Shown in pieces: positions 9,446-52,504 of a stretch of DNA of 64,000 nt. The DNA is taken from the NCBI RefSeq assembly GCF_001017125.1, contig NZ_JXOJ01000005.1, positions 1 through 64,000 on the forward strand, read 5' to 3'. The stretch's first letter is position 1; the number at the start of each line of letters is the position of its first letter. A program made the translations under genes and the position numbers. The DNA is from Methanoculleus sediminis. Its GTDB lineage: Archaea; Halobacteriota; Methanomicrobia; Methanomicrobiales; Methanoculleaceae. Below the pieces are notes generated by a model. The model was given only the letters and a program-made list of their open reading frames with translations. It was not told the origin of the DNA and searched no databases.

Positions 9446-10648
9446 ATGAAAATAGCACTGATCTGCCAGCAGTTCGGGGACAGAACGTCATATCAGGGTT
9501 CGGATATCTACGCCGCAGAACTGGTCTCACACCTCGCCGGACGCAGCGACGTCGATCTCCATGTCGTCACCATGGGCAGCGCGAACGCTGTACGGCAGGA
9601 AGACGGGTTCACCTGTCATACTCTGCGGAACAACGGCCTGCTCTCCCTCCCGTACGTTCACCCGCTGGTGCTCGCGAGGATGGTGAGGACGATCAGGGCC
9701 ATCCGTCCGGATATCGTCCACGTGCTCTCCACCCGGTATCCCTGCTCCGCGGCGGGCATGCTCCTCCGGAACGACTACCCCCTTCTCGTGACGGCGTTCG
9801 GCATCTTCGAGAGAGAGATCGTCTACTACCGTGAGGACATGCGTCCGCTGGAGAAGGCCCTCTCGCACGTCTTCCACGCTTTCTTCATCCGCAACGAGCG
9901 GTGGGTGCTCTCCCGCGCCCCCGAACTCGTCGTGAGCGCTCCGTCGATCGGCGAGCTCCTCCGGACGCCGGCAACCGGCCCCCTCCACGTCGTCGCCGGG
10001 GGCATCGACGTCGGGAAGCTCCGGTCGTCCGGTTCGTCCCTCCGTCCGGGGCCGGCCCCCGATATCGTCTTCGTCAACGCGCTCACGCGGCTGAAGGGTG
10101 CCGACGTCCTGCTCGATGCCCTGCCTCGTGTGGTGAAGGCGTTCCCGGAGGTCAGGGTCTGCATCGGGGGGAGGGGGCCTCAGGAACCGGAACTCAGGAG
10201 GCTTGCACGCAATCTGGGGCTTGAAGAAAACGTCGTCTTCTCCGGGTTCGTAACGGACGAAGAGAAGCATGATTACTACCGTGGGTGCAAGGCGGTGGTC
10301 GTTCCGTCGCGGTGGGACTGCCAGCCCTCTCCTATCTTCGAGGCCGCGGCGTTCGGCAAACCGGTCATCGCGTCCGATATGTCCCATCCCGACATCGTCG
10401 AGGACGGGGTGACCGGGCTTATCTTCCGCTCCGAAGATGCGGTCGGGCTCGGGGAGAAGATCCTCATGCTCCTCGGCGACGATGCCGCACGCGAGAGGAT
10501 GGGCCGGGCGGCAACGCTCAGAGCTGATGAATATGACTGGAAGAGCGTTGCAGAGAAATATCTCGCGATATACGGCGACGTCGTCAGGAGGCATCGCCGG
10601 CACGGGGGGCGGGCTGCGGCGGCTGCCGGCGCATCCCCGGAGAGGTGA
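9446..10648 (+). CDS. Glycosyltransferase family 4
   Basis: About 400 residues with GT4 architecture: MKIALICQQFGDRTSYQGSD at the start, then VNALTRLKGADVLLDALPRV in the second Rossmann domain and PSRWDCQPSPIFEAAAFGKPVIAS as the donor-site signature. An upstream in-frame extension exists to 9329, but MKIAL is the natural GT4 start and the extension overlaps the TATA box. It ends 15 bases before the next glycosyltransferase, so the two form an operon. Substrate unknown. Confidence 0.9.
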   Translation: MKIALICQQFGDRTSYQGSDIYAAELVSHLAGRSDVDLHVVTMGSANAVRQEDGFTCHTLRNNGLLSLPYVHPLVLARMVRTIRAIRPDIVHVLSTRYPCSAAGMLLRNDYPLLVTAFGIFEREIVYYREDMRPLEKALSHVFHAFFIRNERWVLSRAPELVVSAPSIGELLRTPATGPLHVVAGGIDVGKLRSSGSSLRPGPAPDIVFVNALTRLKGADVLLDALPRVVKAFPEVRVCIGGRGPQEPELRRLARNLGLEENVVFSGFVTDEEKHDYYRGCKAVVVPSRWDCQPSPIFEAAAFGKPVIASDMSHPDIVEDGVTGLIFRSEDAVGLGEKILMLLGDDAARERMGRAATLRADEYDWKSVAEKYLAIYGDVVRRHRRHGGRAAAAAGASPER

Positions 10649-45462: not shown

Positions 45463-46134
45463 TCACTCGGGGTTCTCCTGCATCCCCCGTATCGAGAGCC
45501 GGATCAGGCCGAGATTGGCATCCGACTTCGTAAGGATGCAGAGGGAGAGGTCGCCGTAGGGTGCGATGATGAGTTTCCCTGCAGGTGTCTCGAGGATTAT
45601 CTGGGAGAGATCGCCCATCTCCATATCGCCGGTGATGCGGGTGCCGGCACGGAGCAGGTCTTCGGCGACCGCGGCCACCTGCTCGAAATCAGCGGAGCCG
45701 AGCGATTGAAGGGCAAACCCCTCGTGGAAGACCGAGACTGCGATGACGCCCGGCTGCCGCACGATCTGGTCGAGGCAACTCGTGTCCACCGATCCTATCC
45801 GGGAAGAAGGCTTTGCCCCGCCCTCGCTGATCAGGCACCCGGCCTCGCGGGAGGCTTCCCGGGCCGCCTCGGTCTCCTCGGCGGTGTAGGCGATGAGTTC
45901 CGAGTCGAGCGACGGCCGGTCAAACAGGTAGCTGTAAGCTTCGTCTCCGCTGAGCAGCAAACCTTTGCTGCTGTTCTCGAACGCGGCTGCATATGGCTTT
46001 CCGCTCTGAACCAGGACGAAACCGGTTCCTCCGGGCTCGCTGATGCGCACCGCTCCGGTGAAGTGGGGGCTGATTGAAGCAAGGGACGAGAGAGGCCCTT
46101 GCAGTCGTCCGAGTGAGATGCCGTCGGGTAGCAT
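45463..46134 (-). CDS. Two-domain protein: DUF2226/DUF4388-like N-terminus and Roadblock/LC7 C-terminus
   Basis: 223 residues. The first 85 residues (LPDGISLGRLQGPLSSLASI, then FTGAVRISEPGGTGFVLVQSGKPYAAAF in parts) look like the small beta-rich domain found near Roadblock/GTPase systems; residues about 115-223 form a Roadblock/LC7 domain (LDQIVRQPGVIAVSVFHEGFALQS). Roadblock domains dimerise and regulate small GTPases, or dock partners. It is the last gene of the hydrogenase operon, starting four bases after the previous stop. The N-terminal domain resembles that of the protein at 51295-51927. Function in this setting is unknown. Confidence 0.72.
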   Translation of the reverse strand: MLPDGISLGRLQGPLSSLASISPHFTGAVRISEPGGTGFVLVQSGKPYAAAFENSSKGLLLSGDEAYSYLFDRPSLDSELIAYTAEETEAAREASREAGCLISEGGAKPSSRIGSVDTSCLDQIVRQPGVIAVSVFHEGFALQSLGSADFEQVAAVAEDLLRAGTRITGDMEMGDLSQIILETPAGKLIIAPYGDLSLCILTKSDANLGLIRLSIRGMQENPE

Positions 46135-46138
46135 CGTC

Positions 46139-46486
46139 TCACAGAGCAGCGATAATCCGATCCCTGTTCTTCTTCAGTTCGTAGCGGATTCTCCCGACAT
46201 TAACGTTCGCGTTCGCCACGATGGCGATCAGCTCGTCTTCCGAGAGCGGGGAGAGCAGGATGGGGCCGTTCTCCAGTTCGATGAGCATCTGGTTCATCTC
46301 GCCCTTCCCGAGTTCGTCGCTCATGGCTTCGGACGTACCCATGCCTGTCGATGCCATGGCACCCAGGGCCTCAACGTCCACGTCCCCGGCAACGACGCTC
46401 TCGATTACAAAGCCGTCCCGCCCCGCCACGACTGCGGCGGTAACCCCGTCAAGTTTCAGGAATTCTCCCAGGATCTGTTTTAGCAT
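46139..46486 (-). CDS. Roadblock/LC7 domain protein (MglB-like)
   Basis: 115 residues, a single Roadblock/LC7 domain: LGEFLKLDGVTAAVVAGRDGFVIES at the front and ELIAIVANANVNVGRIRYELKKNRDRI at the back (in parts). GAGGAGATAGAAC, which overlaps the hydrogenase large-subunit stop, provides the ribosome site, so expression is tied to the hydrogenase. Such proteins act as GTPase regulators or scaffolds. No Ras-like partner (MglA) is in the window. Confidence 0.9.
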   Translation of the reverse strand: MLKQILGEFLKLDGVTAAVVAGRDGFVIESVVAGDVDVEALGAMASTGMGTSEAMSDELGKGEMNQMLIELENGPILLSPLSEDELIAIVANANVNVGRIRYELKKNRDRIIAAL

Positions 46487-46497
46487 GTTCTATCTCC

Positions 46498-47865
46498 TCA
46501 TGTTCTCCGAACGCATTCGATCTTGAGGGGCATCCTCCCGATTGCGTGCGTTGCACACGAGATACAGGGATCATACGCCCTGATGATCATCTCGATGCGG
46601 TTTGCTGCCCCATCGGTCAACGCTCCGTTCTCCACCACCCGGCGTGCCATATCCTCCACGCCGCGGTCCATCCCGTAGTTGTTCTGGCAGGTCGCCACGA
46701 TCAGGTTGCACCGCTCGATGATGCCGTTTTCATCGACGGTATAGTCGTGGATCAGGGTTCCCCGGGGTGCCTCGATGATCCCGACGCCCCGGCGGTTCAC
46801 GACCGCTCCCACCGGCGTCCGGATGTCTGAAGCGGTGATGCCCGGGTCGGAGAGCAACTGGACGGCCCGCTCGCACGAGGCGATGAACTCGATGTAGCGT
46901 GCCAGGTTGTATGCGAGCGTGGCCTGGGTGACGGTGCCGAACCGCTCGCGGTACTCCGCGAGAGCGGCGTCCGCGTGCTCCGTGCCCATCTTCTGCACGA
47001 TGTTGAGCCGGGCGAGCGGCCCGACCCGGTAATAGTTTCCACCCTTGAACCGGGCGAACTTCAGGTACGACCAGTCCTCCGAGTACTCCTCGATGAAGTT
47101 CGTGTAGTCCTGGCCCGAGAACGAACCGAGCTGACCGCCGTCCGGACCGAGCATCATGGCAGGCCCTTCATAGGTCGAGTAGACCCCGTTGTTGGCCATG
47201 CCCAGGAATCCGGTCGTTACGGCCCCGAACTCCTTATCGACGCCGTCGAGGAGGCCGCGAGCGAGATCCCATCCTTCACGCGCGATCCCGAGAGCCTCAT
47301 TCGCCATGGTGGCGAGTTCCGCTCTCTTTCCTTCCGTGAGCGGTGTCGACATCCCGCCGGGCAGCGCGTTTGACGGGTGGATGGGTTTGCCGCCGACCGC
47401 TTCCGTCAGGCGCTGACCGAACTTCCTGACCGCGATCGCCTTCTTCGCGAGATCCGGCGAGTGGCGGGCAAGCCCGATGACGTTCCGCGTCTCCGCCGGT
47501 GCGTCGTGGCCCAGGATGAAGTCCGGAGCCGCGAGCATGAAGAAGTGAAGGGCGTGGGAGTGGATGAACTGCCCGATGCTCAAGAGTTCGCGGAGTTTCT
47601 TCCCGGTCGCGGGCGGTTCGACACCGAAGATCTTGTCGGTCGCCTTCGCTGCGGCCAGGTGGTGCGCCGAGGGGCATATTCCGCAGATGCGGGGTGTTAT
47701 ACGGGGTGCTTCCTCGATTGAAGCCCCGATAAGGAACTTCTCAAACCCCCTCAGTTCCACGACCTGGAAGTGGGCCGAGTCGACCTGCCCCTGATCGTTG
47801 AGGTAGATCCTGACGCCTGCATGACCCTCGATCCGGGTCACCGGGCTGATGGTGATCTCTTTCAT
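46498..47865 (-). CDS. [NiFe]-hydrogenase large subunit, group 3 (MvhA-like)
   Basis: 455 residues. The nickel-iron site cysteines are C61 and C64 in RICGICPSAHH and C434 and C437 in DPCISCATH; the last His-440 is followed by a 15-residue tail that a maturation protease would cleave, and such a protease is encoded at 52025. The start SPVTRIEGHAGVRIYL and ELRGFEKFLIG match MvhA/F420-non-reducing type large subunits. Its ATG overlaps the small-subunit stop. Unlike classical mvh, no mvhD or hdr genes are adjacent; Roadblock genes follow instead. Physiological electron acceptor unknown. Confidence 0.93.
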   Translation of the reverse strand: MKEITISPVTRIEGHAGVRIYLNDQGQVDSAHFQVVELRGFEKFLIGASIEEAPRITPRICGICPSAHHLAAAKATDKIFGVEPPATGKKLRELLSIGQFIHSHALHFFMLAAPDFILGHDAPAETRNVIGLARHSPDLAKKAIAVRKFGQRLTEAVGGKPIHPSNALPGGMSTPLTEGKRAELATMANEALGIAREGWDLARGLLDGVDKEFGAVTTGFLGMANNGVYSTYEGPAMMLGPDGGQLGSFSGQDYTNFIEEYSEDWSYLKFARFKGGNYYRVGPLARLNIVQKMGTEHADAALAEYRERFGTVTQATLAYNLARYIEFIASCERAVQLLSDPGITASDIRTPVGAVVNRRGVGIIEAPRGTLIHDYTVDENGIIERCNLIVATCQNNYGMDRGVEDMARRVVENGALTDGAANRIEMIIRAYDPCISCATHAIGRMPLKIECVRRT

Positions 47866-48779
47866 CTGCTCCTCTCCTTTACCAGATCCCGGATCTTCGA
47901 GTTCTCCTTGTCCTCCATGATCAGGCTCCCGATGGTGAAGGCGTACATCGTGTGTGCGACGTCGTAGAGTTCCTTCTCCACCTCTTTCTGCGGCTTATCG
48001 GTGAGATCCGAGATCCTTCGCACCATCATGCCGTAGATGTCCCGGCAGGGCTCGCGAAGGATATCGAGCGAGGGGCCGTTGCATCCGTGGCACGGGACGT
48101 TGTTTTTGGGGCACGACGCGCCGCATCTCCCGAAGGTGACGCTCCCGAGGCAGAGGTAGCCCTGCCCGAGCAGGCAGTGTTCGCGGTCGGGAACACCCTC
48201 GTGCCGACGCTTGAGCGTCCAGTTCTCGACCGCCCCCATCTTCCTGTCGCATTCCGAACAGACGGACTTGCGCGAGAGTTCGAGGGTGTCTCCCGCGATC
48301 ATTGCCGGGATGATCTGTTTTAAGAACGCTTCTTTCGGCGGGCAGCCCGTGACGTAGTAGTCGATCTTCACGAGGTCACCCACCGCGAACGCCCGGTAGA
48401 GGAACGGCGGCACGTCCGTCGGGATAACCCCGTCGGGCTTCGTCGTCTCCGCCTCCCGGTAGACGTAGGAAAAGAGGTCCTCGTTCGAGCTCAGCATCGA
48501 GAGACCCGATACGCCCCCGTAGCAGGCGCAGGTCCCGAGTGCGACAAGCGTCTTCGACCGTTTCCGGATCATCTCGAGGCGTTCGCGGTTCTCTTCGTTC
48601 CGAACGGCTCCGGTCACGAACGCGATGTCGATGCCCTCGGGAGGTTCCTTGACGTCCATGATCACCGGGGAGTAGACGATGTCCGCTTCCGCGACGACGT
48701 CGAGCAGCATCTCATGGAGGTCGAGCACCGCGATCGTGCATCCCGAACATCCTGCCAGTTCTTCGATAGCAATCTTCAT
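47862..48779 (-). CDS. [NiFe]-hydrogenase small subunit, group 3 (MvhG-like)
   Basis: About 305 residues. The proximal-cluster motif is ELAGCSGCTIAVLDLHEMLL at the N-terminus, with GTCACYGGVSG and the GCPPKEAFLKQI block; a C-terminal cysteine-rich region (CSECDRKMG, CLGSVTFGRCGASCPKNNVPC in parts) binds further clusters. No twin-arginine signal, so it is cytoplasmic. Two ATGs are possible; 48779 is preferred because GAGGCGATGA lies the right distance ahead, the other being 48785. Electrons probably pass to the ferredoxin at 49353. Confidence 0.93.
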   Translation of the reverse strand: MKIAIEELAGCSGCTIAVLDLHEMLLDVVAEADIVYSPVIMDVKEPPEGIDIAFVTGAVRNEENRERLEMIRKRSKTLVALGTCACYGGVSGLSMLSSNEDLFSYVYREAETTKPDGVIPTDVPPFLYRAFAVGDLVKIDYYVTGCPPKEAFLKQIIPAMIAGDTLELSRKSVCSECDRKMGAVENWTLKRRHEGVPDREHCLLGQGYLCLGSVTFGRCGASCPKNNVPCHGCNGPSLDILREPCRDIYGMMVRRISDLTDKPQKEVEKELYDVAHTMYAFTIGSLIMEDKENSKIRDLVKERSR

Positions 48780-48789
48780 CGTCATCGCC

Positions 48790-49353
48790 TCATTTCAGAA
48801 CCAGTTTCTTCAGGCAGGCGTTCGGGCCGGTGTGAACGATCTCCAGTTTGGCTTTCCTGCCGGTGATCTCCTCGATCGCGCCGACGACGTAACCGAAGAG
48901 CGTCTGGCAGAGCGGGCCGCCCTGGTCGAGACCGTTGCGCCGGAGCGTCTGGCGGACGATGCAGTCGTGGAAGACGAGGTAGATGAACGTCTCGCCGTTC
49001 TCCTCGATGATGAACGTCTCCTTGTCTTCGGGCTTCCAGACCTCGAACGAGTACTGGCCCCGCAGCAGGTCGGAGAGTTCGTGAAGCGCTCCTTCCACGT
49101 CCTCACGTTTCTGGAAGTACTTGGCGACTTCGTGACCGAACTTCTTCCCGGCACGATAGGTGACCGCGTTCGCCCCACGGCCGGCGATCTCCTCAAGCGA
49201 CCTGATTACGAGGCCGTTGAGTTTCATCACGCCGTGGAGCGTATGTTCCATGTCTCTGGGCTTGGGTGAACACTCGAGGGGAATATCCTCGGAACGGTAG
49301 ACCAGATCGGAGTGAAAAGCCTCGTGCATTTCGTCGATGTATCCAGCGCTCAT
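48790..49353 (-). CDS. V4R-domain-like protein in the hydrogenase operon
   Basis: 187 residues. The second half (LVFHDCIVRQTLRRNGLDQG, then GGPLCQTLFGYVVGAIEEITG and HTGPNACLKKLVLK) has the spaced cysteines and ending of 4-vinyl-reductase (V4R) domains, which bind hydrophobic ligands, metals or heme. A sensory or hydrogenase-assembly role is an inference. The ATG overlaps the ferredoxin stop (TGATG), and the hydrogenase small subunit follows at once. Confidence 0.7.
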   Translation of the reverse strand: MSAGYIDEMHEAFHSDLVYRSEDIPLECSPKPRDMEHTLHGVMKLNGLVIRSLEEIAGRGANAVTYRAGKKFGHEVAKYFQKREDVEGALHELSDLLRGQYSFEVWKPEDKETFIIEENGETFIYLVFHDCIVRQTLRRNGLDQGGPLCQTLFGYVVGAIEEITGRKAKLEIVHTGPNACLKKLVLK

Positions 49354-49595
49354 CAGACCACCTTCCGAAGCATTTCACAGACCTTGATGTCGATGTAGTG
49401 TCTCCGGGCAGCGTAGATGCCCCGGTGCTCGAGTGCCTGGGCCGGGCAGATCTCGTGGCAGGAAAGGCATCCCATGCAATTGTTCGGCCTGACCGCGACA
49501 CTCACGTTGTCCTGGAGTTCGTACACGTGCATCGGGCAGTCCTTGACACAGAGACCGCACCCGACGCACGCGTCCTTATCCACATGTATCTCCAT
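49353..49595 (-). CDS. 2x[4Fe-4S] ferredoxin-type protein
   Basis: 80 residues with two cluster motifs, CVGCGLCVKDCP and CMGCLSCHEICP. It is the first gene of the hydrogenase operon and is likely its electron-transfer partner. GAGGCTCGCA precedes the ATG. A C-terminal extension (YAARRHYIDIKVCEMLRKVV) may dock to another protein. Confidence 0.93.
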   Translation of the reverse strand: MEIHVDKDACVGCGLCVKDCPMHVYELQDNVSVAVRPNNCMGCLSCHEICPAQALEHRGIYAARRHYIDIKVCEMLRKVV

Positions 49596-49933: not shown

Positions 49934-50722
49934 TCACGCTTTCGCCCGGAAGAGGGCGCGGGCGAGCCGGTCGACAAAGCCTTCACTGGTACTCTGCGTC
50001 TCTTCCTCGGCATACTCGATACCGGCTATGTCGGCGGAGAGGCGCTTGAAGGCACGGGAAGCGCTGGACGTCGGGTACTTCACCACGATCGGCGATCTCC
50101 CGGCAGATGCGCGCCGGATGTTCGGGTCCTCCGGGATGATCCCGAGCACCCGGACCCCGAGGAGTTTCTCCATCTGTGCGCTGTTGAAGTCGTTCCCGGT
50201 GGCCGCGACCCGGTTGATGATCGCCCCTTCGATGTGCCCGCCGACGGTCTCGGTCAGGATCTTTGTCTTTAAGGAGTCGACGATCGAGGAGATCTCGGGG
50301 TTCACGACAAGAATCACCCCGTCGGCAATCGTCAGCGGGATGACGCCGTCCCTGCTGATCCCTGCAGGGGCATCCAGGATCAGGATGTCGAACTCGCTCA
50401 CGAGGTCGGTCATGATGTCCTTGAGCCGGTCGGGGTTCGACTGCTGGAAGCCCTGCAGAGAGAGACCGCACGGCACGATCTTCACGCCGAACGGCCCGTC
50501 GTAGATGGCGTCCCGGACGCGCGCTTTGCCTGCCAGCACCTCGTGCAGGGTCACCGGCAGGTTTTCAAGCCCGAGAATGAGCCCGAGATTCGCCATTCCG
50601 ACGTCGGCATCCAGAATGCATGTCTTCTTCCCGTATTGGGCAAGCATCGGGCCCAGATTTGCTGTGACCGTCGTTTTGCCGGTACCGCCCTTACCGGACG
50701 CAATCGTGTATACTTTTACCAT
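49934..50722 (-). CDS. minD: MinD-family ATPase
   Basis: 262 residues. Deviant Walker A KGGTGKT at residues 11-17 with the signature second lysine, ILDADVGMANLGLILG for switch I, and LILDAPAGISRDGVIPL for Walker B. The C-terminus EGFVDRLARALFRAKA is an amphipathic helix like the MinD membrane-targeting sequence, so ATP-dependent membrane binding is likely; the CXC motif of nickel-insertion CooC is absent. GAGTGATTAC precedes the ATG. Lies between a Roadblock-like gene and the hydrogenase operon. Archaea use several MinD proteins to position surface machines and chemotaxis arrays; the cargo here is unknown. Confidence 0.9.
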   Translation of the reverse strand: MVKVYTIASGKGGTGKTTVTANLGPMLAQYGKKTCILDADVGMANLGLILGLENLPVTLHEVLAGKARVRDAIYDGPFGVKIVPCGLSLQGFQQSNPDRLKDIMTDLVSEFDILILDAPAGISRDGVIPLTIADGVILVVNPEISSIVDSLKTKILTETVGGHIEGAIINRVAATGNDFNSAQMEKLLGVRVLGIIPEDPNIRRASAGRSPIVVKYPTSSASRAFKRLSADIAGIEYAEEETQSTSEGFVDRLARALFRAKA

Positions 50723-50753: not shown

Positions 50754-51275
50754 TTACACCCAGTGCTGCAGGGTCTCCCGGATATCCTGTTCGAGTGCGT
50801 TCATCTGTTCGTCGGAGAGGTGCTCCGAAGGGTGGGCGATGCCGACCACCGTCTCCCCGCGGTAGGGGACACCGAGGAGTTCCACTCCTTCTTCGTCGTG
50901 CAGTCTTCCCTCCGAGTAGAGGTGACTGTACCGTGCGGCCTCGTCCTCGCTGCCGGGCTTCGTCGAGCCGATCAGAAGACCGTCTGCGGCCGCAAGCGTC
51001 AGGGATGCAAGGCTGTACTTTTCGCTGATTGCACCGAGCGTCTCCTCAAGGCTTCCCGTGCTCGCGGGATCGATGGCTTTGAGGGGAGGCGTGGAGACGG
51101 GCGCCGCGATATCCGGGCCCGGGGAAGCCTCCGGTGTTACTGATGCCTCTGGAGAAGCCTGCCTTTTGATTGCCCGGGAGATCTCCGCAAGGTAGTATGT
51201 AATACCGGCAAAACCGACTACCGTCATTATCGTAAGGAGGATGAGGAAAAACTGGATGGTACCTGTTGAATCCAT
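50754..51275 (-). CDS. Membrane-anchored Roadblock/longin-like protein
   Basis: 173 residues. One N-terminal membrane helix (IQFFLILLTIMTVVGFAGITYYL), a proline/serine/alanine-rich linker (about residues 38-70), and a C-terminal domain (SLEETLGAISEKYSLASLTL, ADGLLIGST, ELLGVPYRGETVVGIAHPSE) of Roadblock/LC7-like or profilin-like type. The helix would fix the domain to the inner face of the membrane. GGAGCTGG precedes the ATG. Sits between the DUF2226/DUF4388-like gene and minD in one run. Confidence 0.68.
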   Translation of the reverse strand: MDSTGTIQFFLILLTIMTVVGFAGITYYLAEISRAIKRQASPEASVTPEASPGPDIAAPVSTPPLKAIDPASTGSLEETLGAISEKYSLASLTLAAADGLLIGSTKPGSEDEAARYSHLYSEGRLHDEEGVELLGVPYRGETVVGIAHPSEHLSDEQMNALEQDIRETLQHWV

Positions 51276-51294: not shown

Positions 51295-51927
51295 TTAGGT
51301 CTCTTTGTCCTTGATGAGGTGGTCGAGGTGAATCTTCTTGAGCATGTCCTTGCAGTTTACTTTGAAACTGCCGACCAGTTGCTCGACATCCATCTCTTCC
51401 ATGTTCTGGACGAGCGTATCGATCTCGTCACCACCTGATTGAGACGCCTCGGCCGTCTCCTGCACGGGTTTCACTCCCGGCATGGGAATATGATGCATCT
51501 CTGCGGCCGGTTCCGGACGACGCCTGGATGAAGATGCCGCACCGGCACCCTTCTGTCCTGTGGATGGCGTTGCTCCTCCCGGAGCCCCTCTCCCCGCCGA
51601 CGACCGTCCCGGTTTTCCGGGCGTTCCGGTCGCAAACGGGGGATTGAACTCCAGGGCGAGCTGTACCTGCTCGGGCGTCAGAAGGTTCAGTTCTGCCGCC
51701 ACCTCGTCCTCTTCGCCCTCCAGCACCGCGTCAAGTGCGTGTTGCCCTTTTGTGCCCCCATATTCGGCAAGCATGACGAGACCTTCGTTCAGCACCAGGG
51801 TGGCACTCTCGTTGCCAAGGACGATCGTGCAGATTCCGGTAAACTGTGCTGAGCTCATCTCTTCTTTCAGCGCACGGGCTGTCGTGGACTTGATAAGACG
51901 ATGGAACCGACCGCGTGGCAGTTGCAT
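51295..51927 (-). CDS. DUF2226/DUF4388-like protein with a low-complexity middle
   Basis: 210 residues: an N-terminal compact domain (about 1-95: MQLPRGRFHRLIKSTTARAL, FTGICTIVLGNESATLVLNE), a Gly/Ser/Pro/Ala-rich linker (about 96-150), and a C-terminal charged helix (VEQLVGSFKVNCKDMLKKIH). The N-terminal domain resembles that of the Roadblock fusion at 45463, so the two may share a partner. TATA at 51966-51976 lies about 45 bases upstream; no Shine-Dalgarno is seen. First gene of the run ending in minD. Confidence 0.68.
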   Translation of the reverse strand: MQLPRGRFHRLIKSTTARALKEEMSSAQFTGICTIVLGNESATLVLNEGLVMLAEYGGTKGQHALDAVLEGEEDEVAAELNLLTPEQVQLALEFNPPFATGTPGKPGRSSAGRGAPGGATPSTGQKGAGAASSSRRRPEPAAEMHHIPMPGVKPVQETAEASQSGGDEIDTLVQNMEEMDVEQLVGSFKVNCKDMLKKIHLDHLIKDKET

Positions 51928-52024: not shown

Positions 52025-52504
52025 CTATCTATGATTGCACCCCGGACCCCCGATCCACTCCCGGAGGATGGCGAGGATCTTCTGCTCCGCAACCCGGATC
52101 CCCTCTTCGACCGCAGGGTCGATCTCCCTGCTGAACGCCTGGATCTCGCCCACTTCAATCCCGACGGTCACGATCTCTCCGGCGTACCCGAGCTCACGGG
52201 CGATCGTCACCACTTCACCGATCCCGATGTCGTGGAGCGCGTATGCCGGAAGGTCCCAGGACGGCGGGGCCTCAAACGCGAGGACTTCCCCGGTGCGGTC
52301 GCCGATACCCGTCATTGCATCGACGACCACCACCCTCTCGTAGCCTTCCATCAGCGGGATCAGGCCGAATCCGCCGGTGCCGCCGTCGATTGCGTCTACT
52401 CCGGGGAATCTCCCTTCAAAGAGGCGCATCACCGAGATCCCCGCCCCGTCGTTTCCCATGAAGGGGTTCCCGCACCCGATGATACATACCCGGTTCTTCT
52501 GCAT
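52025..52504 (-). CDS. Hydrogenase maturation protease (HycI/HyaD family)
   Basis: 159 residues. Cleaves the C-terminal tail of [NiFe]-hydrogenase large subunits after nickel insertion. GCGNPFMGNDGAGISVMRL carries the first metal-sensing acidic residue, VVVDAMTGIGDRTGEV the second, and YALHDIGIGEV the histidine. The large subunit at 46498 has a matching 15-residue tail. TAGGTACC precedes the ATG. It faces away from the ATP-grasp gene across a 91-base spacer. Confidence 0.93.
   Translation of the reverse strand: MQKNRVCIIGCGNPFMGNDGAGISVMRLFEGRFPGVDAIDGGTGGFGLIPLMEGYERVVVVDAMTGIGDRTGEVLAFEAPPSWDLPAYALHDIGIGEVVTIARELGYAGEIVTVGIEVGEIQAFSREIDPAVEEGIRVAEQKILAILREWIGGPGCNHR

Follow-up and report, generated by a model that had tools for sequence, protein, structure and literature searches.

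The window analysed here, a stretch of 64,000 nucleotides from the archaeon Methanoculleus sediminis, contains on its reverse strand two genes for Roadblock proteins which directly follow the gene for the large subunit of a [NiFe] hydrogenase. RB_A (46139-46486) codes for a single-domain Roadblock/LC7 protein of 115 amino acids, and RB_B (45463-46134) for a protein of 223 amino acids which combines an N-terminal PATAN/DUF4388-like domain with a C-terminal Roadblock domain. That two Roadblock proteins are encoded 3' of the hydrogenase large subunit had been proposed in a first-pass annotation, and is borne out by profile searches with the Pfam family Robl_LC7, in which both exceed the curated cut-off of 23 bits (61.1 bits for RB_A; 32.3 bits for RB_B at residues 124-202). 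As read directly from the sequence, the junction between the large subunit and RB_A (46487-46500, reverse strand) reads ACATGAGGAGATAGAACATG, or, written from the end of the large subunit to the start of RB_A, ...ACA TGA GGAGATAGAAC ATG. The ribosome site of RB_A (GAGGAG, 46494-46499) therefore overlaps the TGA stop codon of the large subunit (46498-46500), whereas the TGA ending RB_A is separated from the ATG of RB_B by the four bases GACG (46135-46138). Both details had been noted in the annotation, and together they support its claim that the pair is tightly linked to the hydrogenase at the level of translation. Among 20 relatives sampled, 16 show similarly close spacing of RB_A and RB_B, with gaps between -4 and +10 nt.

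RB_A is highly conserved, with 70-83% identity across five families and a mean column identity of 83%, and its matches in the PDB are archaeal Roadblocks, CvnB and MglB. An AF2 model of RB_B (pLDDT 91.2) has the Ragulator subunit LAMTOR2 and archaeal Roadblocks as its top Foldseek matches (E 1.5e-7). The N-terminal domain of RB_B is related to X210, another protein encoded in the same operon (hhalign E 2.8e-9). DUF4388 is matched by 8 of the 19 members of the X210 family (best E 7.6e-4) and weakly by the N-terminal domain in 3 of 20 RB_B relatives, with no match for either window protein itself in the profile searches; DUF4388/PATAN may thus be taken as the best, though weak, label for the domain which the two proteins have in common. 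In three genomes of family f3 (G002, G020, G038), the RB_B-type Roadblock domain lies within open frames of 629-687 amino acids (L034, 7411-9300), which likely represent a large N-terminal addition to a protein of the RB_B type.

In the direction of transcription, the operon comprises the genes for a maturation protease, X210, TMx, a MinD ATPase, a ferredoxin, a protein of 187 amino acids, the small and large hydrogenase subunits, RB_A and RB_B, all on the reverse strand. The protease (52025-52504) belongs to the HycI/HupD family (Pfam HycI, 52.3 bits; TIGR00072, 91.4 bits with a cut-off of 47.45). The Mvh/Vhu-like large subunit (46498-47865; Pfam NiFeSe_Hases) carries the motifs L1 (CGICP) and L2 (DPCISCATH), followed by a cleavable extension of 15 residues at the C-terminus, and the small subunit (47862-48785; Pfam Oxidored_q6) is VhuG-like. 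VhuA and VhuG are the best NCBIfam families for these two subunits, yet both scores (404.9 and 244.3 bits) stay below the curated cut-offs of 800 and 450 bits. The 187-aa protein (48790-49353), a constant companion of the Roadblock-linked hydrogenase, weakly matches ATC_hydrolase, with one relative weakly matching V4R, and the small ferredoxin (49353-49595), of the 2x[4Fe-4S] type, is recognised by Pfam Fer4 families. No match was found in the window with HdrA-, HdrB- and HdrC-like sequences and a 364-aa iron-sulfur protein (all from L154) as queries; the HdrB-like query matches 3 of 107 Roadblock loci.

Two members of the operon go beyond the first-pass annotation, namely the MinD ATPase and the membrane-anchored Roadblock protein TMx. 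The archaeal MinD (49934-50722; NCBIfam minD_arch, 324 bits with a cut-off of 201.75) shows the deviant Walker A motif KGGTGKT and ends in an amphipathic helix (FVDRLARALFR), which is a putative membrane-targeting helix: the segment VDRLARALFRA has a hydrophobic moment of 0.94, a value reached by none of 300 shuffled versions. TMx (50754-51275) has one N-terminal transmembrane helix and is recognised as a Roadblock protein by its fold only: the profile search gave no significant Pfam match, and comparison with the RB_A or RB_B profiles gave no useful sequence signal. The AF2 model (pLDDT 87.8) consists of one membrane helix and a Roadblock domain, and the top 38 Foldseek matches are all from the Roadblock/LC7 superfamily (MglB, archaeal proteins, LAMTOR/HBXIP), with modest E values (best 1.1e-3). 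X210 (51295-51927) consists of a PATAN/DUF4388-like N-terminal domain, a linker and a C-terminal helix. As judged from the fold and profile results, the operon therefore holds three Roadblock folds, two PATAN-like domains and one MinD.

The linkage of hydrogenase and Roadblock genes is solid far beyond this genome. Among 199 Methanomicrobiales genomes, 78 contain the large subunit, and 76 of these have RB_A directly beside it on the same contig, with a gap of 8-305 nt between the match ends (median 41); the two exceptions are a match at a contig edge and a MAG of 56% completeness. The junction of large subunit, RB_A and RB_B stays in place while the genes for HycI, X210, TMx, MinD and the pilus proteins move. 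In families f3 and f4, the genes follow one another in one direction as ferredoxin, 187-aa protein, small subunit, large subunit, RB_A, RB_B, (X210), MinD, pilus ATPase, TadC and TadC. MinD is found near the pair in Methanoculleus (f1), part of f2, f3, the Methanofollis-type f4, the Methanoregulaceae (f5), all four Methanocellaceae and one Archaeoglobales-like genome; it is not adjacent to the pair in the Methanogenium-type loci L071, L075, L077, L079, L089, L093 and L097, nor in L131 and L150. In some f2 loci, the stretch from the prepilin peptidase to the hydrogenase cassette holds a second RB_A/RB_B pair, which is divergent (L136, 2176-8136; L071, L073, L075, L077).

The pair also occurs without hydrogenase. 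Of 129 genomes with a strong RB_A match, 53 have no large subunit as judged at E 1e-60, and almost all of the latter are from f5 (Methanolinea/Methanoregula). This family keeps RB_A and RB_B together with MinD, X210 and TMx in an arrangement leading into a pilus operon, usually in the order prepilin peptidase and V4R protein, MinD-TMx-X210 divergent from RB_A-RB_B, PilB3-type ATPase and two T2SSF proteins, and its RB_A still shows 70-77% identity. Homology of the V4R protein to the 187-aa cassette protein was considered and is unsupported (hhalign E 0.026, probability 1.9%). Individual losses are seen as well: L033 has lost hydrogenase and MinD and kept X210-TMx-RB_A-RB_B, while in L086 (Methanogenium MAG CSMAG_280, 9700-9950) a deletion joins residue 22 of the ferredoxin to about residue 393 of the large subunit, with RB_A, RB_B and the downstream pilus genes intact beside it, although misassembly is possible in a MAG. 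A pair dedicated solely to the hydrogenase is rendered less probable by f5, L033 and L086.

Pilus genes adjoin the pair in f3, f4, f5 and part of f2; in Methanoculleus and the other part of f2 the pilus operon lies apart, in the present genome on another contig (C8:306.9-313 kb). The hydrogenase and the pilus genes have thus been separated from the pair independently of each other. A pilus ATPase is encoded in 190 of the 199 Methanomicrobiales genomes, including those of f6, which are without RB_A; since it is nearly universal and also present there, pili do not require the module. Further Roadblock genes were observed in other surroundings. A third one detected by Pfam in the present genome is divergent from a MinD paralogue, with a response regulator next to it (L002, 342-1289 (-) and 1441-1842 (+); G000:C1:95 kb). 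RB_A/RB_B-like pairs of a second type lie beside a short two-helix membrane protein (L137, 8423-9645; L138, 8642-10020; L140, 7543-8573), for which a HAMP domain was confirmed in L137, and neither hydrogenase nor MinD is near the pairs of these three loci.

Outside the Methanomicrobiales, four Methanocellaceae genomes encode in one direction the ferredoxin, the 187-aa protein, the small and large subunits, RB_A, RB_B, a PATAN-like protein, a protein of 237-323 amino acids and MinD, with no pilus gene within the stretch examined. Large-subunit identity at this junction is 53-57%, and the Roadblock-linked large subunits of the Methanomicrobiales and the Methanocella order form one clade with 100/100 support in the tree. 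G215, presumably Methanocella paludicola, has a second Mvh copy which adjoins hdrABC, whereas the Roadblock-linked copy does not; the latter presumably corresponds to MCP_2492-2493, the Mvh copy with a D subunit assigned at a distance (MCP_1575). Archaeoglobales-like genomes (f9) show yet another version. L130 encodes in one direction two 187-aa-type proteins, small subunit, ferredoxin, large subunit, a TMx-like protein, MinD, RB_A and a DUF2226 protein, and in L131 and L150 RB_A is divergent from this same cassette. These large subunits fall on another branch of the tree than those from Methanomicrobiales and Methanocella. Together with those of L144-L149, the large subunits of L130 (12809-13981), L131 (5548-6765) and L150 have DPCxxCxxH as their very last residues and lack the cleavable extension, and three of them adjoin RB_A. 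Sensory hydrogenases likewise end without a cleavable extension.

A single origin of all Roadblock-linked hydrogenases was considered; the tree needs at least two label changes, which would fit a deep single origin followed by losses as well as two separate associations. The linkage of hydrogenase, RB_A and MinD occurs outside the Methanomicrobiales, while pilus linkage is seen only within the order. This makes a pair dedicated solely to the pilus less probable. Moreover, the hydrogenase link is old, being shared by Methanocella and, with a different hydrogenase, by Archaeoglobales-like genomes, and is therefore no chance neighbourhood.

Roadblock proteins elsewhere in archaea do adjoin GTPase genes, for example in L129 (8110-9625), where a fusion of KaiC-like and MglA-like GTPase domains lies directly beside a Roadblock gene, and in L133, L139 and L141 with GTPase-like genes. 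The first-pass annotation had stated that no Ras-like GTPase is encoded in the window, and tblastn with the GTPase of the same genome and the KaiC-GTPase fusion as queries indeed gave no match there, nor in any of the 107 Roadblock loci searched with them. From this absence it had concluded that either a distant GTPase is used or the proteins act on the hydrogenase itself, an alternative which leaves out the MinD P-loop ATPase from the same operon, found near the pair in most lineages. A whole-genome search, which it had proposed, identified a single GTPase of the Ras/MglA-like kind, encoded on a different contig (G000:C8:499627-500109; TIGR00231, 51.3 bits with a cut-off of 42.5), with an orthologue or relative in 125 of the 199 Methanomicrobiales genomes. 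The annotation had named a GTPase partner encoded elsewhere with an unrelated role, and synteny conserved without hydrogenase, as evidence against its proposal. Such a GTPase gene does exist and the pair is conserved without hydrogenase, yet the hydrogenase link is old, so that the proposal is contradicted only in part.

At E 1e-12 the GTPase was not found in G001, G007, G013, G025 and G043, five near-complete genomes of f2 which keep hydrogenase, Roadblock pair and MinD. The Roc-domain matches in these genomes are sub-threshold and come from proteins of about 200, 373 or >600 amino acids; the same kinds of protein exist in the present genome and are, by inspection, IF2/FeoB-type, Obg-like and Era-like GTPases. 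Because these five full-cluster genomes and the 107 Roadblock loci are without the GTPase, an obligatory Ras-like partner of RB_A and RB_B, nearby or distant, appears unlikely. As a separate observation, f2 genera with an MglA-like GTPase (g17, g22, g25, g31) tend to have the pair beside pilus genes, where checked, and in the genera lacking it the pair and the pilus genes lie apart.

These features are best explained if RB_A and RB_B are the adaptor pair of a spatial or regulatory module of MinD, Roadblock and PATAN proteins, with type IV pili and a dedicated Mvh-like hydrogenase as clients, a reading to which we assign a probability of about 0.5. The module would consist of the MinD ATPase, the membrane-anchored TMx, the PATAN-like X210 and the co-produced RB_A and RB_B. 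ATP-bound MinD would sit on the membrane via its C-terminal amphipathic helix, and the Roadblock and PATAN proteins would form a heteromeric scaffold, in parts comparable to MglB or Ragulator and partly tethered by TMx, which might include an RB_A/RB_B heterodimer and would bind both MinD and a client. In most families of the Methanomicrobiales, the motor of the type IV pilus would serve as client, as would the Mvh-like hydrogenase where present, and the module would place or gate these machines at the membrane. The gene content, the amphipathic tail of MinD and the membrane-anchored Roadblock protein suggest such a membrane-associated scaffold, while a positioning role of MinD would be by analogy with other organisms and any signalling function is equally putative. 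Since this portable MinD module accompanies the hydrogenase in some lineages and the pilus machine in others, RB_A and RB_B probably do not just assist the hydrogenase or a Ras-type switch. The hydrogenase itself might be a hydrogen-sensing or locally anchored client, coupling hydrogen availability via MinD and the Roadblock proteins to type IV pili or surface attachment; the truncated C-termini of the Archaeoglobales-like large subunits, resembling those of sensory hydrogenases, argue in this direction, but we regard this extension as rather unlikely.

It is conceivable, if doubtful, that the hydrogenase itself is the target of RB_A and RB_B, which would be its anchors, assembly factors or regulators of its activity, with the coupling setting the stoichiometry and the MinD and pilus genes being incidental. 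The almost invariable neighbourhood of RB_A and large subunit, which outlasts the moves of all other genes and is shared by the four Methanocellaceae genomes with large subunits of the same clade, would be expected in this case, as would the recurrence of RB_A beside a different hydrogenase in Archaeoglobales-like genomes; the retention of RB_A without hydrogenase across f5, in L033 and after the deletion in L086, and the similar pairs beside HAMP-type membrane proteins in L137, L138 and L140, would not. Another reading regards RB_A and RB_B as GTPase-activating or effector proteins for the Ras/MglA-like GTPase encoded elsewhere, as MglB is for MglA, probably acting in pilus polarity. It appears unlikely in view of the five near-complete genomes without such a GTPase and its absence from all 107 loci, even though other archaeal Roadblocks adjoin one; in its favour, the present genome encodes such a GTPase, with orthologues or relatives in 125 of 199 genomes, the f2 genera with the GTPase are those with the pair beside pilus genes, where checked, and a group 4 MglA has been described from methanogenic Euryarchaeota (PMC4316618). 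Finally, the pair and the hydrogenase may share only a promoter from an old rearrangement, with no functional link. The differing client genes around the pair in different families fit such hitch-hiking, which is nonetheless improbable given a junction surviving down to the large-subunit identity seen in Methanocella through several rearrangements of everything else, and a similar, separately branching cassette (187-aa relative, ferredoxin, small and large subunit) beside RB_A in Archaeoglobales-like genomes.

If RB_A and RB_B indeed serve as adaptors of a MinD-Roadblock-PATAN module, a signalling or positioning system familiar mainly from pili and cell polarity would be wired to a hydrogenase in hydrogen-using methanogens. 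This would provide a testable route to the role of archaeal Roadblock proteins without a Ras-like partner, as well as to that of the Methanomicrobiales Mvh-like hydrogenase encoded apart from its supposed electron acceptor Hdr, and the families which kept the module and lost the hydrogenase would represent natural deletion strains for comparison. Type IV pilus loci of archaea are known to contain Roadblock proteins (arCOG02603) and FleN/MinD ATPases (arCOG00589; Makarova et al., 2016, PMC4858521), and the hydrogenase subunits Memar_1007-1008 of Methanoculleus marisnigri have been classed as Mvh (PMC2686161). Full-text literature searches (on Methanomicrobiales, and on archaea and GTPase; subscription journals outside their scope) retrieved no report of a link between Roadblock proteins and hydrogenase, and as far as these searches reach, the version coupled to a hydrogenase and holding three Roadblock folds appears to be new.

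Among the closest known arrangements is that of the archaeal pilus loci, in which Roadblock and MinD-family ATPase genes lie beside those for PilB/TadC and prepilin peptidase (PMC4858521), as in the Methanoregulaceae; here, in contrast, the pair is coupled to a hydrogenase, which that paper does not mention, and the pilus genes are elsewhere. With the F420-non-reducing hydrogenase Mvh, the enzyme shares large and small subunits, but there is no hdrABC match in the window, and its constant partners are the ferredoxin, the 187-aa protein and the Roadblock pair. The MglA-MglB polarity switch of Myxococcus and Thermus has in common the Roadblock fold, with MglB among the fold and sequence matches, and the connection to type IV pili, yet no Ras-like GTPase is found in the operon or in several pair-bearing genomes, and the nearby P-loop partner is the MinD ATPase. 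Ragulator (LAMTOR) likewise contains several different Roadblock proteins, one of them membrane-tethered, and provides with LAMTOR2 the top Foldseek match of RB_B; in contrast to it, the present complex is archaeal, has no Rag GTPase and is a putative one, known from genes and predicted folds. Other systems lend support to the proposed working of the module: it is common for the genes of ParA/MinD ATPases and of their cargo to be neighbours (PMC10241942), archaella and chemosensory arrays of Haloferax are placed by MinD (PMC11588486), and in cyanobacteria PilB is a target of PATAN regulators (PMC7690835). Although it would be unusual among cargo-positioning systems to find Roadblock/PATAN proteins in the adaptor role and a soluble hydrogenase in that of the cargo, the putative module described here resembles those represented by McdA/McdB and MinD4 in that candidate genes for adaptors and cargo adjoin that of a MinD-family ATPase.
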